DNA of 44,286 nucleotides from a virus. Position 1 is the stretch's first letter. Every line of letters starts with the position of its first letter. The translations under genes were made by a program, and so were the position numbers. A model generated the notes under the pieces. It saw only the letters and a program-made list of their open reading frames with translations. It did no database searches and was not told the origin of the DNA. This document shows positions 8,184 to 44,286 of the stretch, piece after piece. The DNA is taken from IMG/VR virus record IMGVR_UViG_3300047362_001163, positions 1-44,286 of that record. One strand, given 5' to 3'.

Positions 8184-11100
8184 TTACAGTTGGTTTACAA
8201 TTGACTTAACAAGATATTTTCCAACGCCTGGGATATTGAAAATATTTCTAGCATCATCTTCGAGAATTCCCAGATAGTTTGCAGCATTCACTATCATAAC
8301 TTTTTGTATCATTGCAGTTAGTGTTTTAATATCAACGTCAATTGTCTTTAGGTATTGTTTAGCCTGCTCACTTAGTGGGATATTAAAGACAAAGTCTTCG
8401 ATTGATTCGTTTTTCAGTATCTCGGATATTATTTGTTTATAAGGACCAATAACAAATCCAGAATCTGGGTAATTTTCGTCTAAGCTGATTTTAAATACAT
8501 CGCTGGTATTGAACTTTCTGTTCTTAAAACTTTCCTTGTATACAGTGTAAAAATTAGCCAATTGACTGGATATACCAATATATCCTCCGCTTTGGAAAAT
8601 TAGTTTTCTGCACACTGTTGTCATTATATCATCAAAGTTGTCCTGCTGATAGTTTTTGTTTTTCTTTATTAGATACGCAATATATTCTTCTCTAGTTTCA
8701 ACGTTGGCACGATTTTGAACGTAGATTTCTGCAGCTCTGGCTGTATCGTCGGACCATAGACCAGTGATGTCAGTAATTGTGGATACACTGTTTGGATTCT
8801 CTTCATTGAATGTGCTGTTTACACGATTGTAATCCGTAGGACTCAATCCATATGTAGCAGCACGTTCGTTGTTTCTTCCTTGGATCATTGCTGATTTGAT
8901 TTTACTTCCGTGTATGTCTGATGTTAGCAATCTTTGAATATAATCAGCTTCTCGTCCAAATCCAGTTTCAACACCATATGTTTCTAGGCTGCTGGTAAAT
9001 CCCCAAATGTCTCTAATATTTCCAGTAACTGGAAAACTTCCGGTGTTGTATATTACTTCAACACTGCTATCGGCTGCTGGTGAACTTGAAATGGTTAATA
9101 CGTTTGTTTGGCTGTTGTAGCTAAACTGTCCGCTGGATAATTTAATACCGGAAACATAAACTGTAATATTGGGTGTTTCTGAGTCTACGATTCCCATTAA
9201 TTTAAAGTCGTTTTGCGACCCATTTCCGCTGAACAGCTCAACTCCTATTTCACTAAACCCAATGTCTAGTCCGTATATTTTTCTCAATTTTTGTTCTTTA
9301 TACAGTTGGTAATCGACTTCGTCGTGTAGTCCTTGTGCTCGGAGGAGTTTTTCTAAATTGTCACCGGTGGTGTTATTGTATAAAAAATCTAACTCAGTTT
9401 CGATGTAGTTGTGCAAATCTAATAATGCATCATTTACGTGTTCGTAGTATCCAAGCGAGTACTTTCCGCATACGTTAATAGGATCAAACCCTGCAACAGC
9501 ATCTGCATATGATGCACCAGCCGGAGTTGGGCTAGTTAGATATGTACCAGCTGGTGTTGTAGTTACGTTGGGTGTTTCTTCGGGATCTGTAACTGGTTCA
9601 ACATATGTTGTTGCGCTGAATGTGTAATCACCTCTCAGTGTATCACGCAAATATTCAAGCAAATCGAGATAGCAATCCAACACGCCAGAAGCAGTTAATT
9701 GATCAATAAGGTTAGCAATCTGCGGTAAAGTTTCTGTAACACGATACCCAGCAGCAGTTCCGATAAAATCTGCAACTGTTAGGTTGCCATCACCACTATA
9801 TTCGCTAGTAGGAGATGCTTCCTGTTTGAGTTCAATGTTATCTTCTAACCGCATTGGTTGTACTTCGTCTAGTAAGCCAGAGTCCGCAGAAACAGTTTCC
9901 ATTTCAAACATTAACGCTCCTAGTTGGCCTAGTGTGGAAATACTCAAATCTCCAAGTACACTGATGTGTAAAGATATTTCGTTTAGATTGGTAAACCTAT
10001 TGTTTTCTTTGCTAGTCGGAAACAACCATTTTGGATCTATTAATACACCTAAATTGTCAACATTGGTTTCTCTTTGAATATTCAAAACTTTAAATGCATT
10101 TGCAATTAATTCTGGATCAGTGATTTGTCCTAGTATGTTCTTGGCAATGTTGTCGTTGCTTGGCAAGTTAATTGTTGTTAAACTAATTCCATTGTTAACA
10201 AGAATCGGTACAATTGTTTTTGTTGTTGCCTTTGCACCGTACATAATCAATTGCTCGACAATCTGTCCCGGTGTTCCTATTCTAAATAGATCTTCTAAGT
10301 TTGCTAATTTTCCAAGTGACTTGAGATCACGTCCAGTGCTAGTAATGTCGTTGGTAAGTGAACCCAGACCTTGTGTGACCATTGCGTTCATGTCATGGTA
10401 TACTGTTCCAAACAATGCAACAGGGTTGTCTTCAACAGCACCAGACAAGACTGATTCCTGCGAGCCAACTAAACTAGTATAGCGTCCACCTGCAATTTTG
10501 TCAACGTCAAACCCAGGCACTGGTCCCAGAGAAGTTAAAGACTTTTCACGTGCATTTCCAAACACCTGTCCTTGAATTTGCGACAAGCCTTGACCTAGTC
10601 CTGTGCCCGAACCAGCTGCACCCAATGCCGAACTAAAAATGTTGCAAAATTTTGCTAAGTTTCCGTTTCCTAAAATATTGTTAGCAATTTCTATTATAGG
10701 TTTACTAATAACATTGTTTAAATTGCCGTCAATTACTCCTGCAGTAGATCTAGTCATACGTCCAGTTAAACTGTTTAGTTTGCGATTAACACCGGTGTGC
10801 ATTAGTGTTTCGGTTATGGTAGATCCAAACGTGTGGATTGTTGCTGGTGTTGTATAGTCTGGGCTCCCACGTAATAGAACAAGTATGTCGTTGTTTAAGT
10901 CAACTGCTCGACAAGATTCGTATGTACTAGCTGCAGAAACAAGAGCAGCAGGAACTTGCAGTCCTTGATTCTTGGAAATACTATGCGTAACAGCCACTGA
11001 TGCACTGCTTACTGCGCTACCACCGGTTGAGCCGTTTCTGTTGAAATCGTTTGAAGAATTACAGGCTGTCTGTACTTGTTTTTCGTGCTCAATTACATTG

Positions 11101-11669
11101 CTTGATACTCCGCTAGAATTTGCCAAGTTTCCAAATGCTTCTGGGCTGGTCTCGCCTCCGCTAGATCCGTCGTTTGGAAACATTCCTGCTCCGGCTCTTT
11201 GATTGTTGTCTGCTTGGTAGTTTCCTTGGGATATGCCTTGGTCTAATATACCTTTAAGAGTACTATCATCTAGTGCAACAACACCAGATCTTCCAATCTG
11301 TCTACTTTCAAGTTGATCAAAATAAATGCCCCAGTCATAAAGCCCAACTGCACAAAATCGATTGTCTAGCACACTGTTTCCAACCAGTCCAGATATAAAA
11401 GTTGCATATAAACTTTCATTGCTAGCAGGCGGTAGCACAGACCCTTTTCTAACCAACTGTATGTTAACTGACCAGCCACTGGCACTTTTGATATTATCAG
11501 TAGACTCCGCTATTGTTGGATATACATCTGTTACAATCAGTGTGCTAGCTTGTTCCAGCAAGTCGATAATTTGTTGGTTTGGAAGTACACGTGTGCTTTC
11601 TAGTGCTCCTGGCGACAACGTTGTTCCGTTTAATCTCAACGGAATATGACATCTATTGCTTAAAGACAT
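8184..11669 (-). CDS. Large probable virion protein of unknown function, 1161 aa
   Basis: I do not recognise the family. The N terminus MSLSNRCHIPLRLNGTTL is followed by a region rich in small residues. Residues about 300-700 are mostly helical with several hydrophobic stretches (IIEIANNILGNGNLAKF; IVPILVNNGISLTTIN). Residues about 810-885 contain a small beta module (GNGSQNDFKLMG, ITVYVSGIKLSSGQFSY, VLTISSSPAADSSVEVIY) that also occurs repeatedly in the giant protein at 16195-30228. The C terminus is helical (IKTLTAMIQKVMIVNAANYLG). It is read on the strand opposite to the flanking baseplate genes and ends one base from the gp5 stop. It starts three bases after the PAAR gene stop, so the two are probably cotranscribed. 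The shared module and the PAAR neighbour suggest a tail role; tape-measure or wedge functions are possible but unsupported. Confidence 0.5.
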   Translation of the reverse strand: MSLSNRCHIPLRLNGTTLSPGALESTRVLPNQQIIDLLEQASTLIVTDVYPTIAESTDNIKSASGWSVNIQLVRKGSVLPPASNESLYATFISGLVGNSVLDNRFCAVGLYDWGIYFDQLESRQIGRSGVVALDDSTLKGILDQGISQGNYQADNNQRAGAGMFPNDGSSGGETSPEAFGNLANSSGVSSNVIEHEKQVQTACNSSNDFNRNGSTGGSAVSSASVAVTHSISKNQGLQVPAALVSAASTYESCRAVDLNNDILVLLRGSPDYTTPATIHTFGSTITETLMHTGVNRKLNSLTGRMTRSTAGVIDGNLNNVISKPIIEIANNILGNGNLAKFCNIFSSALGAAGSGTGLGQGLSQIQGQVFGNAREKSLTSLGPVPGFDVDKIAGGRYTSLVGSQESVLSGAVEDNPVALFGTVYHDMNAMVTQGLGSLTNDITSTGRDLKSLGKLANLEDLFRIGTPGQIVEQLIMYGAKATTKTIVPILVNNGISLTTINLPSNDNIAKNILGQITDPELIANAFKVLNIQRETNVDNLGVLIDPKWLFPTSKENNRFTNLNEISLHISVLGDLSISTLGQLGALMFEMETVSADSGLLDEVQPMRLEDNIELKQEASPTSEYSGDGNLTVADFIGTAAGYRVTETLPQIANLIDQLTASGVLDCYLDLLEYLRDTLRGDYTFSATTYVEPVTDPEETPNVTTTPAGTYLTSPTPAGASYADAVAGFDPINVCGKYSLGYYEHVNDALLDLHNYIETELDFLYNNTTGDNLEKLLRAQGLHDEVDYQLYKEQKLRKIYGLDIGFSEIGVELFSGNGSQNDFKLMGIVDSETPNITVYVSGIKLSSGQFSYNSQTNVLTISSSPAADSSVEVIYNTGSFPVTGNIRDIWGFTSSLETYGVETGFGREADYIQRLLTSDIHGSKIKSAMIQGRNNERAATYGLSPTDYNRVNSTFNEENPNSVSTITDITGLWSDDTARAAEIYVQNRANVETREEYIAYLIKKNKNYQQDNFDDIMTTVCRKLIFQSGGYIGISSQLANFYTVYKESFKNRKFNTSDVFKISLDENYPDSGFVIGPYKQIISEILKNESIEDFVFNIPLSEQAKQYLKTIDVDIKTLTAMIQKVMIVNAANYLGILEDDARNIFNIPGVGKYLVKSIVNQL

Positions 11670-36166: not shown

Positions 36167-37009
36167 ATGGCATACAGTAGTGGCGGATTAATTGAAGCAA
36201 CTGATTATAATGGATTCGTAGCCAGCGTTAACGCTGTCTGGGGCAGCGGCTCAAGCGCAACAGGTTACGGGCAATCAACAACACTAAGCACAGTAGCAGT
36301 ATCTAGCACAGTAACAGCAACACAATGGGCATCATTGATTGCAAGAATCGATAGTATGCGCCAACACCAAAGTGGCGTTACAAGTGGACTTACACAACCA
36401 ACAACAGGCGATACAATTGAGTTTTTGGCTTCGTTGAGCACTCAAATTAGCAACATAACCACAAACAAAGACGACAATAACGTAGGTGTAACTCAATTAG
36501 CAACAGCAAACGCTAGTGGCGGCACAAGCTGGACTAGCAATGCAGTACGCGAGTGCAAATTTACATTCAGCAGCGCAAATGCAATGCGTTATTTTTTCAA
36601 TGCAGGCGGAACAATTACTTGCAACACTATTAGTAGTAGCTTTAGTGGCAACACCAAAAGCAACAACTGGGACACAATTGCAAATGAAACTTCAGCAACC
36701 ATCACTAACAGCATTTTTTGGAATAACTTGAGCACAAGTAACTACACAGTAGATTCAAATACAGGTAGCGGTGCAGATTACGGTAGTAACGTACTTTATT
36801 TACAAGCTCGTCTAAATGCAGCACCAGGTAGTAGCACAGAAATTATTATTCGTGCATACTTTGTTGATGGCGCAGCAGATGGCTTTGATGACGCAGTAAG
36901 CGGAACAGCACGTGTAGATGCTGCAGCTAACGGAGCAAACACCACATATCTTACAAGTACTTGGGGTACACCAACTGCAACTGATAACTTAACAGTCACA
37001 CAATCATAA
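36167..37009 (+). CDS. Probable virion protein, 280 aa, unknown function
   Basis: The product begins MAYSSGGLIEATDYNGFVAS and WGSGSSATGYGQS, contains a helical part with QWASLIARIDSMRQHQSG, and then a beta-rich body of about 150 residues (FTFSSANAMRYFFNAGGTI, SNNWDTIANETSATITNSIF). N-terminal Gly/Ser sequences and a later jelly-roll-like body fit small fibre-associated or head-decoration proteins, but I do not recognise a named family. It follows the short fibre by 14 bases with AAGGAA before the ATG, so it probably belongs to the same late transcript. It is the last gene before the sigma70-type promoter of the accessory operon. Confidence 0.55.
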   Translation: MAYSSGGLIEATDYNGFVASVNAVWGSGSSATGYGQSTTLSTVAVSSTVTATQWASLIARIDSMRQHQSGVTSGLTQPTTGDTIEFLASLSTQISNITTNKDDNNVGVTQLATANASGGTSWTSNAVRECKFTFSSANAMRYFFNAGGTITCNTISSSFSGNTKSNNWDTIANETSATITNSIFWNNLSTSNYTVDSNTGSGADYGSNVLYLQARLNAAPGSSTEIIIRAYFVDGAADGFDDAVSGTARVDAAANGANTTYLTSTWGTPTATDNLTVTQS

Positions 37010-37046: not shown

Positions 37047-37367
37047 ATGAGCAACGATATAAAACATAAAGTAAAGCTTGCGTGGGAACGCAAGCTTTCT
37101 TATTTAAATTTACAAGAACAATTTCAAAACGAATTAACTTTTGCTTTTGGCGGAGGTATGTGGCGTGCAGATAGAGAAACTATTGCATTCCTCACAGCAT
37201 TTGTAAATATTGAGCAAATGACAGTCGAGGACATTTACTGTGTTCCTAGGCAAGTAAATCCTAACGAACTACTAGAAATCTGCAAACAAAAATATCAATT
37301 TGCGGCCAATAACTGGGCAGCTGAGTATGCTAGATTGTCAAGCATTAGAAAAGCTGACAATGTCTAG
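37047..37367 (+). CDS. Unknown 106-aa protein, first gene of the accessory operon
   Basis: The product is mostly helical and charged (LAWERKLSYLNLQEQFQNEL, FAFGGGMWRADRETIAFLTA, NPNELLEICKQKYQFAANNW). I do not recognise a family; the regular layout and plausible codons suggest a real small protein. There is no Shine-Dalgarno sequence, and the sigma70-type promoter ends five bases before the ATG, so a leaderless message is likely. Codons 9-18 are inside a perfect hairpin (37073-37098). The next in-frame ATG is at residue 38, which would remove the conserved-looking N-terminal half. The gene overlaps the next one by eight bases. Confidence 0.6.
   Translation: MSNDIKHKVKLAWERKLSYLNLQEQFQNELTFAFGGGMWRADRETIAFLTAFVNIEQMTVEDIYCVPRQVNPNELLEICKQKYQFAANNWAAEYARLSSIRKADNV
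37073..37098 (+). terminator. Perfect GNRA-loop hairpin with T-rich tail at the start of the accessory operon
   Basis: AAAGCTTGCGT (37073-37083) pairs perfectly with ACGCAAGCTTT (37088-37098) around a GGGA loop, which fits the GNRA tetraloop class. The stem has an A-tract at its 5' foot and continues as TTTCTTATTT at its 3' foot (37096-37105), the layout of an intrinsic terminator. It lies inside the coding region, about 26 bp after the predicted transcription start. It could end read-through from the late genes or act as an attenuator for the accessory operon. Confidence 0.55.
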
Positions 37368-38160
37368 TGGGGTATTGTTGGTTGCATTTGATAGTGTTAC
37401 AGATCAAGGAAAAATACTTCCTTACACTGAGCTAGCAAAGGTCTGTGCAAATCTTGTAAGAAAACATCTTAAGTTACCAGTTGGTATTGTAAGCGATACT
37501 AAAGTCGAAGGGTTTGACGAACATATAATTGTTAACAAACCTGTAGCTGATACACGACATGTTGCAATTGATCGTGTGCATCAATCATACAATTGGTATA
37601 ACGATTATCGCCGCCAACTTTTTAACTTAACACCATTTAAGAAAACACTGCTCTTGGATGTTGACTATTTTTTACAAACAGATCAATATTTAAAATGTTT
37701 TGAATTTGATGCCCCTTTTCAGATTATTGATCGTGTTTATGATCCAACTAACAGAAAAAGCTTTGACAAATATCTCAATCTTCCTAATCGAACAATACCT
37801 CAGTGCTGGGCAACAGCAATGTATTGGAATCAGGATGCACAAGAATATTTTGATTATGCTAACATGATAGCCGATAATTACAAGTACTATAGCCGAGTAT
37901 TTGGCTTTTCTCATAAGCAGTACCGTAACGATATGGTTTTTAGTATTGTTTCTCATATGATGCCTGCCTATAAAATGCCCTGGCCTATGCATATGACAAC
38001 TGGAGACTGTGCTATAGTTGATGCAAACGAGCACGGAATAAAGTTTCGGTACAGCGATAATATAATAAGAATTAACAATGACATTCATGTATTAAACAAA
38101 AATATAATGTCAGATGACATCTTAGAGTATTTGCAAAATTGGAGTAGTAATGCAAATTAA
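37360..38160 (+). CDS. GT-A glycosyltransferase-like protein, 266 aa
   Basis: The start at 37360 (MSSGVLLVAFDSVTDQ) is preferred over ATG 37300 because the first strand begins there and the gene then overlaps its predecessor by eight bases, a usual coupled arrangement. Features of a GT-A fold: an N-terminal beta-alpha unit with a loop for nucleotide sugar (VGIVSDTKVEG), and a DxD-like metal site in KTLLLDVDYFLQTD. Later helices contain FGFSHKQYRNDMVFSIV. It probably acts in the cytoplasm on sugar transfer, but donor and acceptor cannot be read from sequence. It is similar in plan to the next gene. Confidence 0.55.
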   Translation: MSSGVLLVAFDSVTDQGKILPYTELAKVCANLVRKHLKLPVGIVSDTKVEGFDEHIIVNKPVADTRHVAIDRVHQSYNWYNDYRRQLFNLTPFKKTLLLDVDYFLQTDQYLKCFEFDAPFQIIDRVYDPTNRKSFDKYLNLPNRTIPQCWATAMYWNQDAQEYFDYANMIADNYKYYSRVFGFSHKQYRNDMVFSIVSHMMPAYKMPWPMHMTTGDCAIVDANEHGIKFRYSDNIIRINNDIHVLNKNIMSDDILEYLQNWSSNAN

Positions 38161-39016
38161 TATGGTCAAAGAGTACAGTGGCAATCGCGGATTTGTTACT
38201 ACTGTTGCACATAACGCTCAAGCAGACTATCTTGCACAAGCATACCTGCAAGCATTAAGTATAAAACTTACACAACATAACGAAACTAACTATGCAGTAA
38301 TTGTAGACAAAGAAACTGCCAATAGAATTGAACCCAAGCACGAAAAAATATTTGATTGTATTGTAGTTAATACAGAACCTTGGAGTTTTTCACAAGAATG
38401 GCGTGTTCGAAATCTATCTCCATGGAAGCGCAGTATCAAGCTCGATGCAGACATGTTATTTGTTAATGATATCGGACGTTGGTGGAACAGTTTTGAACAG
38501 TGGAGGGTGTTGTTAACTTCTACTGTAGAAAATTACAAAAACGAAGTTATCACTAGTCGTTGGCATAGAGAATTGTTTGACTTAAATCATTTACCGGATA
38601 TTTACACAGCATTTTATTACTTTAGAGATGGCCCTGAAAGTGCTGAATTCTTTGAACTCTGCGCAGAAATAAGCGATAACTGGGATTGGTTTGCAAATGA
38701 ATTTTTAATTAAAAACGATAATCCCAATCCACGAGATGATGAGATATTTGCTATTGCTGCAGAAATATACGGAATTGAAAAATGCACGTTACCTGGAGCA
38801 GCATATCCGAGATTTGTTCATTTAAAAGAACCGCTAAATAGTTTACCGGCAGGAGAATCATGGCACAATCAATTGCACGTCGAACACAACGACCAGTTAT
38901 GGATCGGTCATTATCCACAGCGCCTGCCTATACATTATACAAGCAAAACATTTGCAACCAACGAGTTAATTAATTACTATGAACAAAACTACAGAAAACT
39001 TATGGAAAGCACTTGA
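38150..39016 (+). CDS. GT-A glycosyltransferase-like protein, 288 aa
   Basis: The N-terminal half follows the GT-A plan: GFVTTVAHNAQADYLAQAYL, NYAVIVDKETANRI, and a DxD-like site in PWKRSIKLDADMLFVND. Then a region with YTAFYYFRDGPESAEFF and PRDDEIFAIAAEIYG, equivalent to the acceptor side, and a C-terminal H-rich stretch (HNQLHVEHNDQLWIGHYPQR). It shares layout with the preceding protein (same order of strand, DxD strand, helical part), although identity is low. The gene overlaps the previous one by 11 bases and the next by 38, so it belongs to one operon. An alternative ATG at 38162 is possible. Confidence 0.58.
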   Translation: MQINMVKEYSGNRGFVTTVAHNAQADYLAQAYLQALSIKLTQHNETNYAVIVDKETANRIEPKHEKIFDCIVVNTEPWSFSQEWRVRNLSPWKRSIKLDADMLFVNDIGRWWNSFEQWRVLLTSTVENYKNEVITSRWHRELFDLNHLPDIYTAFYYFRDGPESAEFFELCAEISDNWDWFANEFLIKNDNPNPRDDEIFAIAAEIYGIEKCTLPGAAYPRFVHLKEPLNSLPAGESWHNQLHVEHNDQLWIGHYPQRLPIHYTSKTFATNELINYYEQNYRKLMEST

Positions 39017-39341
39017 AAATTATATTCCGCCAGTTAACAAAACATTAGTCTGGAAACTGATTTATGATCCCGAAACTGGAAAACCAATAAGTGTTACGAC
39101 CGACGAAACTGATCAACCTTATATTGAAATAAGTCGCAATGAAGCCGATACATATCCGCATCAGGATCCTAGAGTTAGCGTAGTTGATGGAAAGATAGTT
39201 CGTAGAGTAAAAAAATTAAGCTTGCAAGAAATACCTAATAGGCTGCAAGTATTTCCTAATGATAAAGGAAATATTGCAACTGATACATATAATATGTTAC
39301 TGTTAAACAGTAGCGGAAATAATCGGTGGAAATATGACTGA
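38979..39341 (+). CDS. Small unknown protein of the accessory operon, 120 aa
   Basis: An acidic, beta-rich protein: VNKTLVWKLIYDPETGKPIS, DQPYIEISRNEADTYPHQ, DPRVSVVDGKIVRRVKK, then LQEIPNRLQVFPNDKGNIAT. The pattern YDPETGK, YIEIS and RVxVxDGKIVR suggests a compact beta-hairpin domain. No enzyme motif, signal peptide or Cys is present. It overlaps both neighbours (38 bases before, 8 after), so it is firmly within the operon between two glycosyltransferase-like genes. It could be a scaffold, a partner, or a substrate of the radical SAM proteins; nothing in the sequence decides. Confidence 0.6.
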   Translation: MNKTTENLWKALENYIPPVNKTLVWKLIYDPETGKPISVTTDETDQPYIEISRNEADTYPHQDPRVSVVDGKIVRRVKKLSLQEIPNRLQVFPNDKGNIATDTYNMLLLNSSGNNRWKYD

Positions 39342-40266
39342 ACAATTAATTGATGTTGCAGAATTGGACTGCATTTACTTAACATACGATGAGCCTAAGT
39401 ACGAAGAATTCTGGGCAGTAATTAGTGCACAATTACCGTGGGCAAAACACGTACATGGTGTAAAGGGTAGCGATGCTGCACATAAAGCAGCCGCAGAGGC
39501 CAGCGACACGGATAGATTTGTATTAATTGACGGCGATAATTTGCCAGACTGGAACTTTTTTAATCAAGTCTTGCGTATCGATAGCAACAACCAAAATGCA
39601 GTATTTAGATGGCGAGCAAAAAATTCTGTCAATGGATTAAGTTACGGCAACGGCGGCCTAAGTTGTTGGACAAAAGACTTTATAATGAATATGCAAACGC
39701 ACGAAGCAAGCAACGGCACCGACGAAAACAATGTTGAGTTTTGTTTTGATCCCTTATACTGGGCAATGCACGACACTTGGAGTACTACATACCCAAATGG
39801 TAGTGCTAAACATGCATGGCGTGCCGGATTTCGAGAAGGTGTAAAAATGTGCTTAGATAGAGGCACAAAACCTACACTGGCTGAGTTTGAGAAGCGAGTA
39901 CATGCGCAAAACATGAATCATCTTGTGGTTTGGCAAACAGTGGGTGCAGATGCAGAGTTTGGGCACTGGGCAATCTATGGTGCACGTTTAGGAACATATT
40001 TAACAATGTTAGAAGGTTGGGACCATACAAAAGTACAAGACTTTGATGCACTCGAAAAGTTATGGGATCAACAGAAAGATGTTACGCCAGAGGAAGACAG
40101 CAAAGACATTGGAAAAGAATTAAAAAGAAAGTTAGCTTTGCCAATTGTTGATATGGACGCAGACTCAAGCAGATTTTTTAAGAAATATCAGCACCGCCGA
40201 CCTAACTTGGATGTTATGCTAAGGGAAGGTTTCGAGAAAAAGTTCATCAAGGAAAATGAAGAATGA
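39334..40266 (+). CDS. Glycosyltransferase-like protein, 310 aa
   Basis: The N terminus has a Rossmann-like plan: DCIYLTYDEPKYEEFWAVI, LPWAKHVHGVKGSDAAHKAA, TDRFVLIDGDNLPDWNFF, with DGDN in the position of a GT-A DxD metal site. A second part has VFRWRAKNSVNGLSYGNGG and FCFDPLYWAMHDTWST. The C-terminal 70 residues are charged and helical (WDQQKDVTPEEDSKDIGKEL). I recognise the overall type as one met in marine T4-like phages, but a defined reaction is not known to me. It overlaps the next gene as ATGA, typical of translational coupling. A non-enzymatic sugar-binding role is also possible. Confidence 0.5.
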   Translation: MTEQLIDVAELDCIYLTYDEPKYEEFWAVISAQLPWAKHVHGVKGSDAAHKAAAEASDTDRFVLIDGDNLPDWNFFNQVLRIDSNNQNAVFRWRAKNSVNGLSYGNGGLSCWTKDFIMNMQTHEASNGTDENNVEFCFDPLYWAMHDTWSTTYPNGSAKHAWRAGFREGVKMCLDRGTKPTLAEFEKRVHAQNMNHLVVWQTVGADAEFGHWAIYGARLGTYLTMLEGWDHTKVQDFDALEKLWDQQKDVTPEEDSKDIGKELKRKLALPIVDMDADSSRFFKKYQHRRPNLDVMLREGFEKKFIKENEE

Positions 40267-41642
40267 GTGACTATTTAAATGATGCCGAACGTGCAAAAGC
40301 TGCATTAAACACTGTTAGTGATAGTTTTTGCTTGGCTAAATGGAAACAAGTTAGCTTGCACTTGCCCACCGGATTAAACAACAGTTGCTATCATCCGCCT
40401 TTGCACAAGATTAGTGTTGATGAAATAAAAGACAATCCCAGTGCATTACACAACACATCACACAAGAAACAACAGCGTAAAAAAATGCTCAATGGCGAAC
40501 GACCAGCTGAGTGTAGTTACTGCTGGAATATCGAAGATACTGGAAATCTTAGCGATCGGCATTATCGAAGCGGCGAGCCGTGGGCATTTACAAAATTTGA
40601 CGAAGTTGCAAATGCAGAATGGGACGCCGACATTAATCCTGCATACGTCGAGGTTAATTTTAGTAATGCGTGTAACCTAGAATGTACTTATTGCAGTCCT
40701 CAGTTTAGTAGCACTTGGGGTAAGCAAACCGAAAGATACGGTGCATATCCAACTACAGTACCACATAATGCTCCGGAGCACTTTAAAGATAAAATTATTC
40801 CTAATAGAGATCATAACCCTTATGTAGAAGCATTTTGGAAATGGTGGCCTGATTTATATCCAGAGTTAAAACATTTTCGCATGACAGGCGGCGAGCCCAT
40901 GATGGATAAAAATACTTACAGAGTATTTGATTACATATTAGAAAACCCCAAGCCCGACTTACATATCAATACTACTAGTAACTTTAGTGTTGAGCCTCAG
41001 TTGTTTGAAAAGTATTTGGACTATGCCAAACGCTTGTGCAATGAAGAAACAATTGAACATTTTATGCAGTTTGTTAGTGTTGACACATGGGGCGAACAAG
41101 CAGAATATATCAGACCTGGGCTTGATTTTGAAAGACTACAAAAAAATGTAGAACGTTTCTTAACTGAAATCCCTGGAAGAAACAGTGTAACATTTATTAT
41201 CACAATGAACAACTTGTGTATTCCTGGTATACAGGATTTCCTAAAATGGATACTCAAACTTAGAGCAAAACACAGCACTACATATCAACGTGTATGGTTT
41301 GACACTCCGTTGTTGAGGCAGCCACAGTGGCAAAGTTTGCAGATTATGCCCGAGAGTTATGCCTGGAATCTAGAACAAACGTTACACTGGATGCAGGCGC
41401 ATGTTATAGTAGATGATATACATGAGTTTGTTGGATTTAAAGATTTTGAAATTAATAAAATGCGCAGAGATATTGCGTGGATGCGTAGCAAGCATCCAAA
41501 CTTAGATATCAAAAAAAATATGATCGACTTTTACAAATTTTTTGTAGAACACGATCATCGCCATAACAGTGTATTCATGGAGGTATTTCCAGAAATGAGT
41601 GACTGGTGGAGTGAATGTAGACACTATGCAGAATCTGTTTAA
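40263..41642 (+). CDS. Radical SAM protein with N-terminal auxiliary-cluster module (1 of 4), 459 aa
   Basis: The radical SAM motif CX3CX2C is at C137, C141 and C144 (CNLECTYC), followed by the GGEP motif at 209-212 (FRMTGGEPMMD) that binds the SAM amino group. Upstream, C23, C42, C84 and C87 form C-x18-C-x41-C-x2-C in a SPASM/twitch-like module (SFCLAKWKQ, NNSCYHPPLHK, ERPAECSYCW). In well-known SPASM/twitch enzymes that module follows the barrel; here it precedes it. The protein would cleave SAM with a 4Fe-4S cluster to make a radical for a modification of peptide, sugar or RNA; the substrate is unknown. The C terminus (FYKFFVEHDHRHN, MEVFPEMSDWW) recurs in the gene at 42674. It starts by ATGA overlap. 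Confidence 0.75.
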   Translation: MSDYLNDAERAKAALNTVSDSFCLAKWKQVSLHLPTGLNNSCYHPPLHKISVDEIKDNPSALHNTSHKKQQRKKMLNGERPAECSYCWNIEDTGNLSDRHYRSGEPWAFTKFDEVANAEWDADINPAYVEVNFSNACNLECTYCSPQFSSTWGKQTERYGAYPTTVPHNAPEHFKDKIIPNRDHNPYVEAFWKWWPDLYPELKHFRMTGGEPMMDKNTYRVFDYILENPKPDLHINTTSNFSVEPQLFEKYLDYAKRLCNEETIEHFMQFVSVDTWGEQAEYIRPGLDFERLQKNVERFLTEIPGRNSVTFIITMNNLCIPGIQDFLKWILKLRAKHSTTYQRVWFDTPLLRQPQWQSLQIMPESYAWNLEQTLHWMQAHVIVDDIHEFVGFKDFEINKMRRDIAWMRSKHPNLDIKKNMIDFYKFFVEHDHRHNSVFMEVFPEMSDWWSECRHYAESV

Positions 41643-42669
41643 TTGGCCACTATGGCACTGGCATTTTGAAGTTAGTAGTATTTGTACATTAAAATGTCCT
41701 AGATGCCCTAGGACTGAAATACCAGAAAGTTTGGTACAAACACAACTGCGTTTAGACTTTTTTGAAAAAAATTTTACATTTGCTGATCAAATTAAAAAAA
41801 TAACATTCTGTGGCGACGATGGCGACCCAATTTATGCACGAGATTTTCTTAGCATTGTAAATTTTTTTAAACAGCAAAATCCAAGTGTTAATATTAATAT
41901 TATAACCAATGGAAGTTACAAATCGCCACAGTGGTGGAAAGATCTTGGCAACATATTAAATGAAAATGATCAAGTACACTTTAGTTTAGATGGTTGGGAT
42001 CAAAAATCAAATGAACAGTACAGAGTTAATTGCGATTGGGAAAGTATAGTATCGGGTATACGTTCTCTTAGAAAAAACACCACAGCGTTTTTACAATGGG
42101 ATGCTATTGTTTTTAAATTCAATCAGTTTCAGATTGATGATATGAAAAACATGGCAAGAGACTTAGGATTTGACAGTTTTCAACTAACTAGAAGCACTAA
42201 GTTTGGAAGTAAATATCAGCATTATAATGATAACAAAACACATGACAGTTTAGAGCCCGACAAAGAGTTTATACCAGAAGGTCATAGATTTTTTAGAGAA
42301 GTGTTTAGATTTACTAATAGGATTCCCAATACTGAATCTGCTATAATAGAAAATACAAAGTATTATAATCAAGTAAAAGAAGATAGCAAAAACAAAAACA
42401 TTATACCATTATGTTTGATTGGAACAAAAGGAATTTTTGTAAACAGTCAAGGATATTTAATACCGTGTTGCTGGGTCGGAAACAGGTATAATCATACTGG
42501 ACTAAGTAAGTTTGTAATACCCGAAAACAACATAAGTACACAAGGAATTGAAAATGTTATTAATGCTAAACACTGGAATACATTTATAGAAGACTTCAAT
42601 ACAATGACTGAGTGCAAGAACAAATGCAGTGCTCACTTGGTTGACAAAAAATATGCAACAACATGGTAA
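41626..42669 (+). CDS. Radical SAM protein with C-terminal SPASM-like module (2 of 4), 347 aa
   Basis: The CX3CX2C motif is close to the N terminus at C20, C24 and C27 (ICTLKCPRCPRTE). The barrel follows, with TFCGDDGDP in the GGEP position and VHFSLDGWDQKSNEQYR, similar to the SLDG strand of peptide-modifying radical SAM enzymes. The C-terminal module has C263, C281/C282, C330 and C334 (PLCLIGTKGIFVNSQGYLIP then CCWVG; TECKNKCSAH), a usual SPASM order. The start MQNLFNWPLWHWHFEVS at 41626 overlaps the previous gene by 17 bases; ATG at 41599 is an alternative with nine more residues. It has a conventional domain order, unlike the other three. Confidence 0.75.
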   Translation: MQNLFNWPLWHWHFEVSSICTLKCPRCPRTEIPESLVQTQLRLDFFEKNFTFADQIKKITFCGDDGDPIYARDFLSIVNFFKQQNPSVNINIITNGSYKSPQWWKDLGNILNENDQVHFSLDGWDQKSNEQYRVNCDWESIVSGIRSLRKNTTAFLQWDAIVFKFNQFQIDDMKNMARDLGFDSFQLTRSTKFGSKYQHYNDNKTHDSLEPDKEFIPEGHRFFREVFRFTNRIPNTESAIIENTKYYNQVKEDSKNKNIIPLCLIGTKGIFVNSQGYLIPCCWVGNRYNHTGLSKFVIPENNISTQGIENVINAKHWNTFIEDFNTMTECKNKCSAHLVDKKYATTW

Positions 42670-42673
42670 GTTT

Positions 42674-43996
42674 ATGGATAGAACAGACAGAGAATTTAAA
42701 GATTACTTAGGAACTTTTAGCGATAGCTTCTGCGGTGCAAAGTGGTACAATGCTACAGTTTGGCTAGGAAGCGGTATGACTACCAGTTGCCACCACCCGT
42801 TACCACACAAAATTGATGCAGAAGCAGTAAAACTTAATCCTAAGTTGTTGCACAATACTCCAGAAAAGAAAAGACAGCGTTCACAAATGAAATGCGGCGA
42901 ACGTCCAAGCGGTTGCGAATACTGCTGGAAAATTGAAGACATGGGCAAAGAGTTTATCAGTGATAGAGTTTATAAAAGCAATATATACACTGATGATGAA
43001 TTAGAAGCAGCATACAATACTCCGACAGAAGACGATGTTGATTTGCGCACACTAGAGATTGCGTTTGATAGAACTTGTAACTTTGCGTGTAGTTACTGTA
43101 ATCCTGCGTTTAGTAGTACTTGGGTCAAGGATCTAAAGCAACATGGCGGGTATGAAAACTTAATCAGTGACGGACGTAATCACTTTACGCATACACACCC
43201 TGAGGCACAACTTTACAAGTACGGCGAAGAGAATCCATATATCGAAGCGTTCTTTAAATGGTGGGACAGTGATCTGCACAGAACACTGCGGGAACTACGC
43301 ATCACAGGCGGCGAACCTATTATGGCAGGCGAACTGTGGAGATTGTTTGATTGGTTCAAAGACAACGTAGATAAAAGTCAAACTAAACTTGCTATTAATA
43401 GTAACTTAGGCGGCAAAGCAGACTTGATTCAACGTATTGTAGATGCACGTGAATGGTTACCGAGTTTAGATGTATACACTAGTGCAGAATCAATTGGCGC
43501 ACAACAAGACTATGTGCGTGATGGCATGGATTTTGATCTATGGTGGAGCAATGTAAAAATGCTTCACGAAGCAAAAATTGATACGCACTGTATGATGACT
43601 GTAAATGCATTATCGCTGAATACATTGCCCGATTTGATTGAAAAAATTCTACAACAACGTAAAGAATATAACACAAGAGATTTTGCAGTGTTTAGTTTGA
43701 ACATATTGCGTTTTCCAAGTTTTCAGAGTTGCTTGGTATTGCCTGCACATATTAAAAGAACGTGCATTGAGAGACTAGCAGAAATTGATTTATCGCAGTG
43801 CCATCAATTTGAACAAGGTCAAGTCACACGTCTTATTGAATACTTGCAAAGCGTCGAAACACCCCATAGTGAAAGTTTTGACATGCCAAAACTACTTAAT
43901 GATTTTAAGAAGTTTTATCAACAGTACGACAAGAGAAGAAATAAAAATTTCCAGGAAACATTCCCTGAACTAGCAGATTGGTATAACAACCTATGA
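42674..43996 (+). CDS. Radical SAM protein with N-terminal auxiliary-cluster module (3 of 4), 440 aa
   Basis: A paralogue of the gene at 40263. Shared landmarks in the same order: SDSFCGAKW, TSCHHPLPHK, LHNTPEKKRQRSQM, GERPSGCEYCWKIEDMG, CNFACSYCNPAFSSTW, NPYIEAFFKWW, RITGGEPIMAG, and FQETFPELADWY at the end. The auxiliary Cys are C20, C39, C81 and C84, with spacing x18, x41, x2 identical to the paralogue. The radical SAM motif is at C135, C139 and C142. ATG at 42674 is chosen because homology starts there, with GGTAAG upstream and a four-base gap to the previous gene; ATG at 42629 would overlap that gene by 41 bases. The substrate is unknown. Confidence 0.76.
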   Translation: MDRTDREFKDYLGTFSDSFCGAKWYNATVWLGSGMTTSCHHPLPHKIDAEAVKLNPKLLHNTPEKKRQRSQMKCGERPSGCEYCWKIEDMGKEFISDRVYKSNIYTDDELEAAYNTPTEDDVDLRTLEIAFDRTCNFACSYCNPAFSSTWVKDLKQHGGYENLISDGRNHFTHTHPEAQLYKYGEENPYIEAFFKWWDSDLHRTLRELRITGGEPIMAGELWRLFDWFKDNVDKSQTKLAINSNLGGKADLIQRIVDAREWLPSLDVYTSAESIGAQQDYVRDGMDFDLWWSNVKMLHEAKIDTHCMMTVNALSLNTLPDLIEKILQQRKEYNTRDFAVFSLNILRFPSFQSCLVLPAHIKRTCIERLAEIDLSQCHQFEQGQVTRLIEYLQSVETPHSESFDMPKLLNDFKKFYQQYDKRRNKNFQETFPELADWYNNL

Positions 43997-44286
43997 CAGA
44001 TAGAATTAAAGATAGTAAAACATTTTGTATGATGCCGTGGCTACACATGCATGCCTTTGCAGATGGCAGGGTATATCCTTGCTGTTTTGGCGAGTATCAT
44101 TTGCATATGGGTAATTTGCGAAACAACACAATGGAAGAAGTATGGAACAATGATTCATACAAAACTATGCGTAAAAAAATGTTACGTGATTTGCCTTGCA
44201 AAGAATGTACCAAATGCTACGAACAAGAGAGCAATGGCATTTTTAGTTTGCGTAACAGTATCAATAAAAGTCACGGCAAATATGTT
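43993..44286 (+). CDS. Fourth radical SAM-type protein, N-terminal module only (cut by window edge)
   Basis: Ninety-eight codons are open to the window end; the start overlaps the preceding stop as ATGA. The visible part is a SPASM/twitch-like module: TFCMMPWLHMHAFADGRV, YPCCFGEYH, MGNLRNNTMEEVWNNDSYK, LPCKECTKCYEQE, with C12, C30/C31, C69, C72 and C75. The order C-x17-C, the GNLRNNTMEEVWN strand-helix and the final CxxC match the auxiliary domain of SPASM radical SAM enzymes. If the operon pattern holds, a CX3CX2C barrel lies just beyond the window, making a third protein with the module at the N terminus. The barrel itself is not seen here. Confidence 0.65.
   Translation, partial: MTDRIKDSKTFCMMPWLHMHAFADGRVYPCCFGEYHLHMGNLRNNTMEEVWNNDSYKTMRKKMLRDLPCKECTKCYEQESNGIFSLRNSINKSHGKYV

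Follow-up and report, generated by a model that had tools for sequence, protein, structure and literature searches.

A near-fixed cassette of N-terminal-twitch radical SAM enzymes beside putative glycosyltransferase genes in a marine T4-like phage and related loci

Introduction

BtrN, an aminocyclitol dehydrogenase, belongs to the radical S-adenosylmethionine (SAM) enzymes that carry an auxiliary SPASM or twitch module. A family with the twitch at the N-terminus is defined by the NCBIfam profile NF033640 (N_Twi_rSAM, twitch domain-containing radical SAM protein), which is applied to the whole protein with a curated cut-off of 170 bits; our literature search found no paper naming N_Twi_rSAM, NF033640 or an N-terminal twitch, and no assigned substrate for the family. 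Here, we analyse the entire virus record IMGVR_UViG_3300047362_001163 (44,286 bases, hereafter the window), which closes with a row of radical SAM genes, rS1 to rS4, the last of which ends with the record. The enzymes themselves are of this known family; what is new is a phage cassette of five N_Twi orthologues in constant order, together with its scale and its sharing with Bdellovibrionota.

In pelagimyophages, a host recognition island that follows a giant baseplate protein holds tail fibres, many glycosyltransferases and gained radical SAM cassettes (PMC7029224). The source virus is a large marine phage, and the gene content of the window runs, as in T4-like phages, from a late sigma factor through baseplate hub and wedge proteins and a 4,677-amino-acid virion protein to fibre proteins. 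Its N_Twi cassette sits in the tail-fibre and host-recognition region, after the fibre genes and three glycosyltransferase-like genes.

Results

Five N_Twi enzymes form a phage cassette

Scanning IMG/VR with rS1 gave 550 related stretches; we retained the best 80 loci, which make 81 with the window. N_Twi types in these phage loci were assigned by group profiles as o1 (the orthogroup of rS1), o3 (that of rS3), C (that of rS4), D and E. All five types occur in 58 of the 81 loci (34 after dereplication), and 56 of these 58 (32 of the 34 dereplicated loci) run o1-o3-C and then D and E, either way round. An earlier sequence-only reading of the window had counted four radical SAM genes; all four are present, and the array proved to be longer, with relatives adding two more N_Twi types. 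The second gene of the window, rS2, is an optional insert found in 8 of the 81 loci.

Adjacent radical SAM genes overlap or lie no more than 20 nucleotides apart in 255 of 276 pairs, a spacing from which the cassette genes are predicted to be translationally coupled. Whole virus records hold up to 15–16 N_Twi genes, some of them far from the tail region, and carbamoyltransferase genes follow the cassette in 30 loci. One locus encodes a phage DUF59/SufT-like iron-sulphur (Fe-S) assembly protein (L031:11368-11703; PF01883, E 8e-15; a cluster of 7 loci), whose gene sits between rS1 and rS3 in that locus and its near relatives; its place within the array is consistent with a need for Fe-S clusters.

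Cysteine motifs place the enzymes in a known family

The sequence-only reading had proposed identical cysteine modules ahead of the barrel motifs in the products of the genes at 40263 (rS1) and 42674 (rS3), a C-terminal module in that at 41626 (rS2), and a similar N-terminal module, C-x17-C-x38-C-x2-C, in the incomplete product at 43993 (rS4). Direct reading bore out the first two proposals: rS1 and rS3 both contain C-x18-C-x41-C-x2-C (residues in Table 1), followed after 49–50 residues by CX3CX2C (residues 137–144 and 135–142, respectively) and then by GGEP at 209 and 212, and rS2 has CX3CX2C at residues 20–27 with its SPASM cysteines within residues 263–334 (PF04055, 33.1 bits; PF13186, 25.2 bits). 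The third stood in its likeness and was refined in its spacing, for the cysteines of rS4 lie at 12, 30/31, 69, 72 and 75, giving x17 to the first cysteine of the CC pair or x18 to the second. In all three N-terminal modules, the first two cysteines fit the canonical half-SPASM pattern C-x9-15-G-x4-C (G37/C42 in rS1, G34/C39 in rS3 and G25/C30 in rS4).

Both rS1 and rS3 match the full NF033640 profile (E 8.6e-99 and 2.2e-90; scores in Table 1), and the rS4 fragment matches profile positions 1–88 with 90.4 bits over 87 residues (E 1.3e-25). A relative of rS4 in another locus (L007) scores 409 bits, above the cut-off, and relatives of rS4, D and E also match at full length, far above it. No match to NF033640 was obtained for rS2, which has a C-terminal SPASM instead and is hence not a family member. 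On these profile matches, we assign rS1, rS3 and rS4 to the N-terminal-twitch family NF033640. The identification of their N-terminal module as a real twitch is supported because PF13186, the Pfam SPASM family, matches that of rS4 at 56.9 bits, and because the N-terminus of a profile of the rS4 family can be aligned to BtrN's auxiliary domain, which is C-terminal in that enzyme; this match is supportive but weak (E 0.002).

The full four-cysteine pattern is present in 84/84 o1, 76/76 o3 and 81/81 C orthologues, and the 18/41 spacing is constant in all 76 of the o3 group. Across the 86-sequence alignment used for the rS1 model below, C42, C84, C87, CX3CX2C and GGEP are invariant, and C23 is kept in at least 90%. 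Every protein examined in the five groups o1, o3, C, D and E contains CX3CX2C, while GGE is absent from one protein each of o3 and D. An additional N-terminal domain of some 130–160 residues, for which no relative was identified, is present in some of the C-type enzymes (L006:16743-18461, L019:15192-16889, L021:13810-15513 and L069:13002-14663).

A confident model of twitch followed by barrel

An AlphaFold2 model of rS1, built on the 86-sequence alignment, reached a predicted local distance difference test (pLDDT) score of 94.9 and a predicted template modelling (TM) score of 0.92. Its elements run from a short helix and a two-strand hairpin, through helices bearing C84 and C87, to six strand-helix units and C-terminal helices, and residues around the cysteine quartet are modelled at pLDDT 93–98. 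The six barrel strands form a (beta/alpha)6 core, which together with CX3CX2C and GGE marks the protein as a member of the radical SAM superfamily. A circularly permuted barrel was ruled out, as the twitch comes first in the model and six complete strand/helix units follow.

Judged by sequence, secondary structure and model confidence, the N-terminal cysteines do not appear scattered. The suggestion in the sequence-only reading that the reversed order is a working design agrees with this confident fold, with a quartet that is near-fixed across five paralogue families and with the barrel motif in relatives of the fourth gene: the record itself ends at 44286, and CX3CX2C is found in 81/81 C-type relatives. 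Homologues with the same order, which that reading had called for, exist as NF033640 members in bacteria and as predicted viral proteins, including those of phages KVP40 and phi-pp2. The idea that the order is a new architecture had to be given up, since it already defines NF033640 and is common in bacteria.

In a Foldseek search of solved structures with the rS1 model, none covered this layout, with a best E of 5.5e-5 and a TM on query of 0.28–0.35; the matches included SkfB, SuiB, NifB and viperin, with SkfB and SuiB the nearest folds. Predicted viral proteins match over the full length, the best being an uncultured phage protein (TM 0.80/0.88). The viperins among the barrel matches, together with records that hold up to 16 N_Twi genes, some away from the tail region, would fit a small-molecule product, for instance a cofactor or a modified nucleotide, acting in phage-host conflict by a viperin-like logic. 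We consider this improbable, because the viperin matches span about 210–300 columns, mainly the shared barrel, the viperin profile NF038283 (viperin_w_prok) gives 16.7 bits against a cut-off of 180, and the cassette is linked to tail and glycosyltransferase-like genes, not to nucleotide genes. Tailoring of a glycan, weighed below, is the role that we prefer.

Bacterial relatives share the cassette enzymes

A genome scan detected relatives in several groups, among them Bdellovibrionota, Bacteroidota and Elusimicrobiota. In a quickly built tree of N_Twi proteins, for which the Shimodaira-Hasegawa-like approximate likelihood ratio test is the sole support measure, o1 and o3 each form one clade (support 95 and 96), D (78) and E (54) are weakly supported, and Bdellovibrionota members stand beside every phage N_Twi type. 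All five types occur on one Bacteriovoracaceae contig (L094), and in the bacterial order to which its genome belongs, NF033640 matches exceed the cut-off in 31 of 57 genomes.

The phage gene immediately upstream of rS1, g39334, has homologues in 6 of these 57 genomes, all six of them N_Twi-positive (hypergeometric P 0.02); with one further genome added, all seven g39334-positive genomes carry N_Twi genes. Among the N_Twi matches listed, 10 of 16 g39334 copies lie within 5 kilobases of an N_Twi gene (p about 7e-8, a crude binomial that uses the largest genome fraction and is approximate, as N_Twi genes cluster). Homologues of g39334 thus adjoin N_Twi genes in bacteria much more often than chance would predict.

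One bacterial chromosome carries genes in the phage order g36167-g37047-g37348-g38150-x-g39334 beside N_Twi genes (L205:11389-15800), flanked on one side by what we judged by eye to be rnhB-to-pheT-like housekeeping genes. This segment may represent a transfer between phage and a Bdellovibrionota-like host, in either direction.

Several further features were recorded around the bacterial genes. The o1-type N_Twi genes adjoin an ABC-2 exporter pair in L193 (PF01061/PF00005), as they do, by eye, in L140. An S/D-x-D protein, nucleotidyltransferase-like by eye, adjoins o1-type N_Twi genes in several Bdellovibrionota (L094:15724-16686, L096:11151-12128, L193:3210-4061 and L140:5397-7484); the L140 copy is fused to an N_Twi-like part, and a Pfam search of this protein found no family. 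Across 131 bacterial flanking proteins, no family other than radical SAM (10 members) was dominant, with a few PhyH and GDSL proteins. A label of UDP-galactopyranose mutase, given by eye to a flavoprotein (FAD) of the bacterial clusters, was dropped because its best match is PRK07208. A metagenome-assembled genome (MAG) of Elusimicrobia (G009; L161 and related contigs) yields 55 or more N_Twi_rSAM matches, and many of these lie in frames of 600–1200 amino acids; the extra parts of the Elusimicrobiota proteins look by eye like TPR or Sel1-like repeats, and one protein (L090) holds two N_Twi units. These fusions were set aside as a functional clue, as TPR and Sel1-like repeats are interaction modules that give no catalytic hint.

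Genomic setting

The genes upstream of and within the window part of the cassette are given in Table 1. PHROGs gave no family for the g36167 product of the window, and Pfam none for its bacterial homologue. Elsewhere in the window, a 1,161-amino-acid gene on the minus strand (8184-11669), glycine/serine-rich and structural-looking, lies in inverted orientation between the genes of the baseplate hub and wedge. Host assignment from the MAG labels of near-identical contigs was abandoned, as these labels (Pelagibacter, Verrucomicrobia, Rickettsiales, Betaproteobacteria and Flavobacterium) conflict.

Table 1. Genes and motifs of the cassette region, in window coordinates (aa, amino acids).
Feature	Position	Strand	Description
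g36167	36167..37009	+	Beta-rich fibre/virion-like protein; upstream of cassette; 73/81 loci by clustering
g37047	37047..37367	+	Small conserved protein; 72 loci by clustering; homologue in L205
g37348	37348..38160	+	GT8/glycogenin-like putative glycosyltransferase, DVD motif
g38150	38150..39016	+	Second GT8-like putative glycosyltransferase, DAD motif; weak phrog_1903
g38979	38979..39341	+	Small conserved protein; 43 loci by clustering
g39334	39334..40266	+	GT-A-like, IDGDN motif; overlaps first N_Twi gene from upstream; 81/81 loci
rS1 (orthogroup o1)	40263..41642	+	N-terminal twitch radical SAM enzyme, 459 aa; NF033640 331.3 bits
rS1 twitch Cys quartet C23, C42, C84, C87	40329..40523	+	Direct read
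rS1 CX3CX2C, aa 137-144	40671..40694	+	SAM-binding [4Fe-4S] motif; direct read; invariant in alignment
rS2	41626..42669	+	Conventional radical SAM/SPASM, C-terminal SPASM aa 263-334; accessory
rS3 (orthogroup o3)	42674..43996	+	N-terminal twitch radical SAM enzyme, 440 aa; NF033640 303.6 bits
rS3 twitch Cys quartet C20, C39, C81, C84	42731..42925	+	Direct read
rS4 (orthogroup C)	43993..44286	+	Start of third N_Twi enzyme, 98 aa, twitch half only

Discussion

A possible role in glycan tailoring

The three genes g39334, g37348 and g38150 encode putative glycosyltransferase-like proteins. Each has a DxD-type motif (DGDN, DVD and DAD, respectively), and an AlphaFold2 model of g39334 is of high confidence (pLDDT 90.9, predicted TM 0.89); the Pfam matches of these genes are isolated and weak, and none was obtained for the g37348 protein of the window. 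We give about an even chance to the reading that these proteins and the five N_Twi enzymes together carry out radical tailoring of a host-surface or fibre glycan. Sugars would be the most likely substrate because glycosyltransferase-like genes precede the cassette and occur in the bacterial clusters. The reading also draws on the tie between g39334 and N_Twi genes in bacteria, the carbamoyltransferase and ABC-2 exporter genes, the weak alignment to BtrN and the glycosyltransferase-rich island of related pelagimyophages.

On the glycan reading, each enzyme would hold a SAM-cleaving [4Fe-4S] cluster in its (beta/alpha)6 barrel and a second, predicted [4Fe-4S] cluster in the preceding twitch. The barrel cluster would cleave SAM and hydrogen would be taken from the substrate, while the twitch cluster may accept or relay an electron, as in BtrN with its aminocyclitol; as the twitch usually has four cysteines, its cluster probably has a full set of ligands and a role in electron transfer, as in that enzyme. 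The chemistry on the sugar could be dehydrogenation, epimerisation or dehydration, and its purpose either to change the glycan of the host surface or to decorate the phage fibres themselves.

Several observations weigh against a glycan role of this kind. The glycosyltransferase assignment leans on weak matches, namely that of a joint profile of the g37348 and g38150 families to glycogenin-1 (E 3e-4) and the best Foldseek matches of g39334, all of them GT-A glycosyltransferase or nucleotidyltransferase folds at E 1.6e-3 at best. The L094 array, with its five orthogroups, lacks a g39334 homologue and lies among housekeeping genes, and outside Bdellovibrionota, the surroundings of most bacterial N_Twi genes show no consistent link to sugars. 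Finally, the first twitch cysteine is absent from 11 of the 129 proteins of types D and E. That loss would also fit if the N-terminal cysteines bound no cluster and the twitch were a structural relic, an explanation we regard as highly improbable given that all o1, o3 and C proteins examined have the whole quartet, that most proteins of types D and E retain it, and that its surroundings are confidently modelled.

A different substrate, a protein or peptide, is the main alternative to a glycan, although we think it rather unlikely. Peptide maturases dominate the characterised SPASM/twitch enzymes, which counts in its favour, as does the place of SkfB and SuiB as the closest folds among solved structures. 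Tail-fibre genes always precede the cassette, and the fibre proteins or the g36167 product could be targets of epimerisation, cross-linking or thioether formation; the bacterial chromosome described above has g36167 and glycosyltransferase-like genes with N_Twi genes in the phage order. However, g36167 was found in only 1 of the 57 genomes of the order in which N_Twi genes are common, where it is possibly a phage remnant, and we rejected it as a general substrate, keeping it within this alternative only. A system that matures ribosomally synthesised and post-translationally modified peptides (RiPPs) is less likely because no precursor-peptide gene fits between the enzymes: a check of gene spacing found that the overlapping genes leave no intergenic room for one in the window and little in relatives. 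Nor does the rS1 model, with one short N-terminal helix before the twitch, have room for a domain the size of a RiPP recognition element. A RiPP maturase system with an adjacent precursor was accordingly rejected; a peptide encoded at a distance could still be the substrate.

Returning to the glycan reading, a bolder form of it, which we think unlikely, is that the five enzymes are non-redundant and act in sequence on one carbohydrate, building an undescribed sugar, and that, with its domains reversed, the family has a second, independent means of setting an auxiliary cluster against the barrel for polymer-bound substrates. More broadly, the cassette points to a heavy investment in radical chemistry by some marine phages, probably for altering surface sugars. 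The N-terminal-twitch family extends over Bdellovibrionota, Bacteroidota, Elusimicrobiota and uncultivated phages, with no solved structure of its layout found, and a phage row of five such enzymes beside sugar-transferase genes is largely unexplored. Through its near-fixed order, its linked GT-A-like gene and the cultivated Vibrio phages with single members, the cassette makes the chemistry of the family directly testable.

Comparison with known systems

The SPASM/twitch enzymes BtrN, SkfB, MoaA and anSME share with the N_Twi enzymes a homologous auxiliary module and the same barrel, but their module is C-terminal, whereas it is N-terminal in rS1, rS3 and rS4. Other N-terminal auxiliary clusters are those of lipoyl synthase and the methylthiotransferases, which stand before the barrel as here; their modules are unrelated to the twitch and are set apart by their known cysteine motifs.

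Among cultivated Vibrio phages, predicted folds from KVP40 and phi-pp2 match rS1 along most of their own length (TM on target 0.76 and 0.68), and a K566 protein scores 202 bits against NF033640, above the cut-off. The record of K566 has several N_Twi-like genes, one of them above that cut-off (L195:8971-15707), while in phage nt-1 the only hit lies next to nrd genes. The proteins of K566 and nt-1 are distant from the window enzymes (21–25% identity), and the five-gene cassette was not seen in KVP40, phi-pp2, nt-1 or K566.

The host recognition cluster of pelagimyophages has the same position as the cassette described here, with glycosyltransferases and radical SAM cassettes; we do not claim a SAR11 host for the window virus, and the description of the pelagimyophage radical SAM genes does not state how their domains are ordered, which paralogues they form or what they do (PMC7029224). 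NF033640 itself has the same twitch-then-barrel order as the window enzymes, and the five-gene phage cassette lies outside that family definition.

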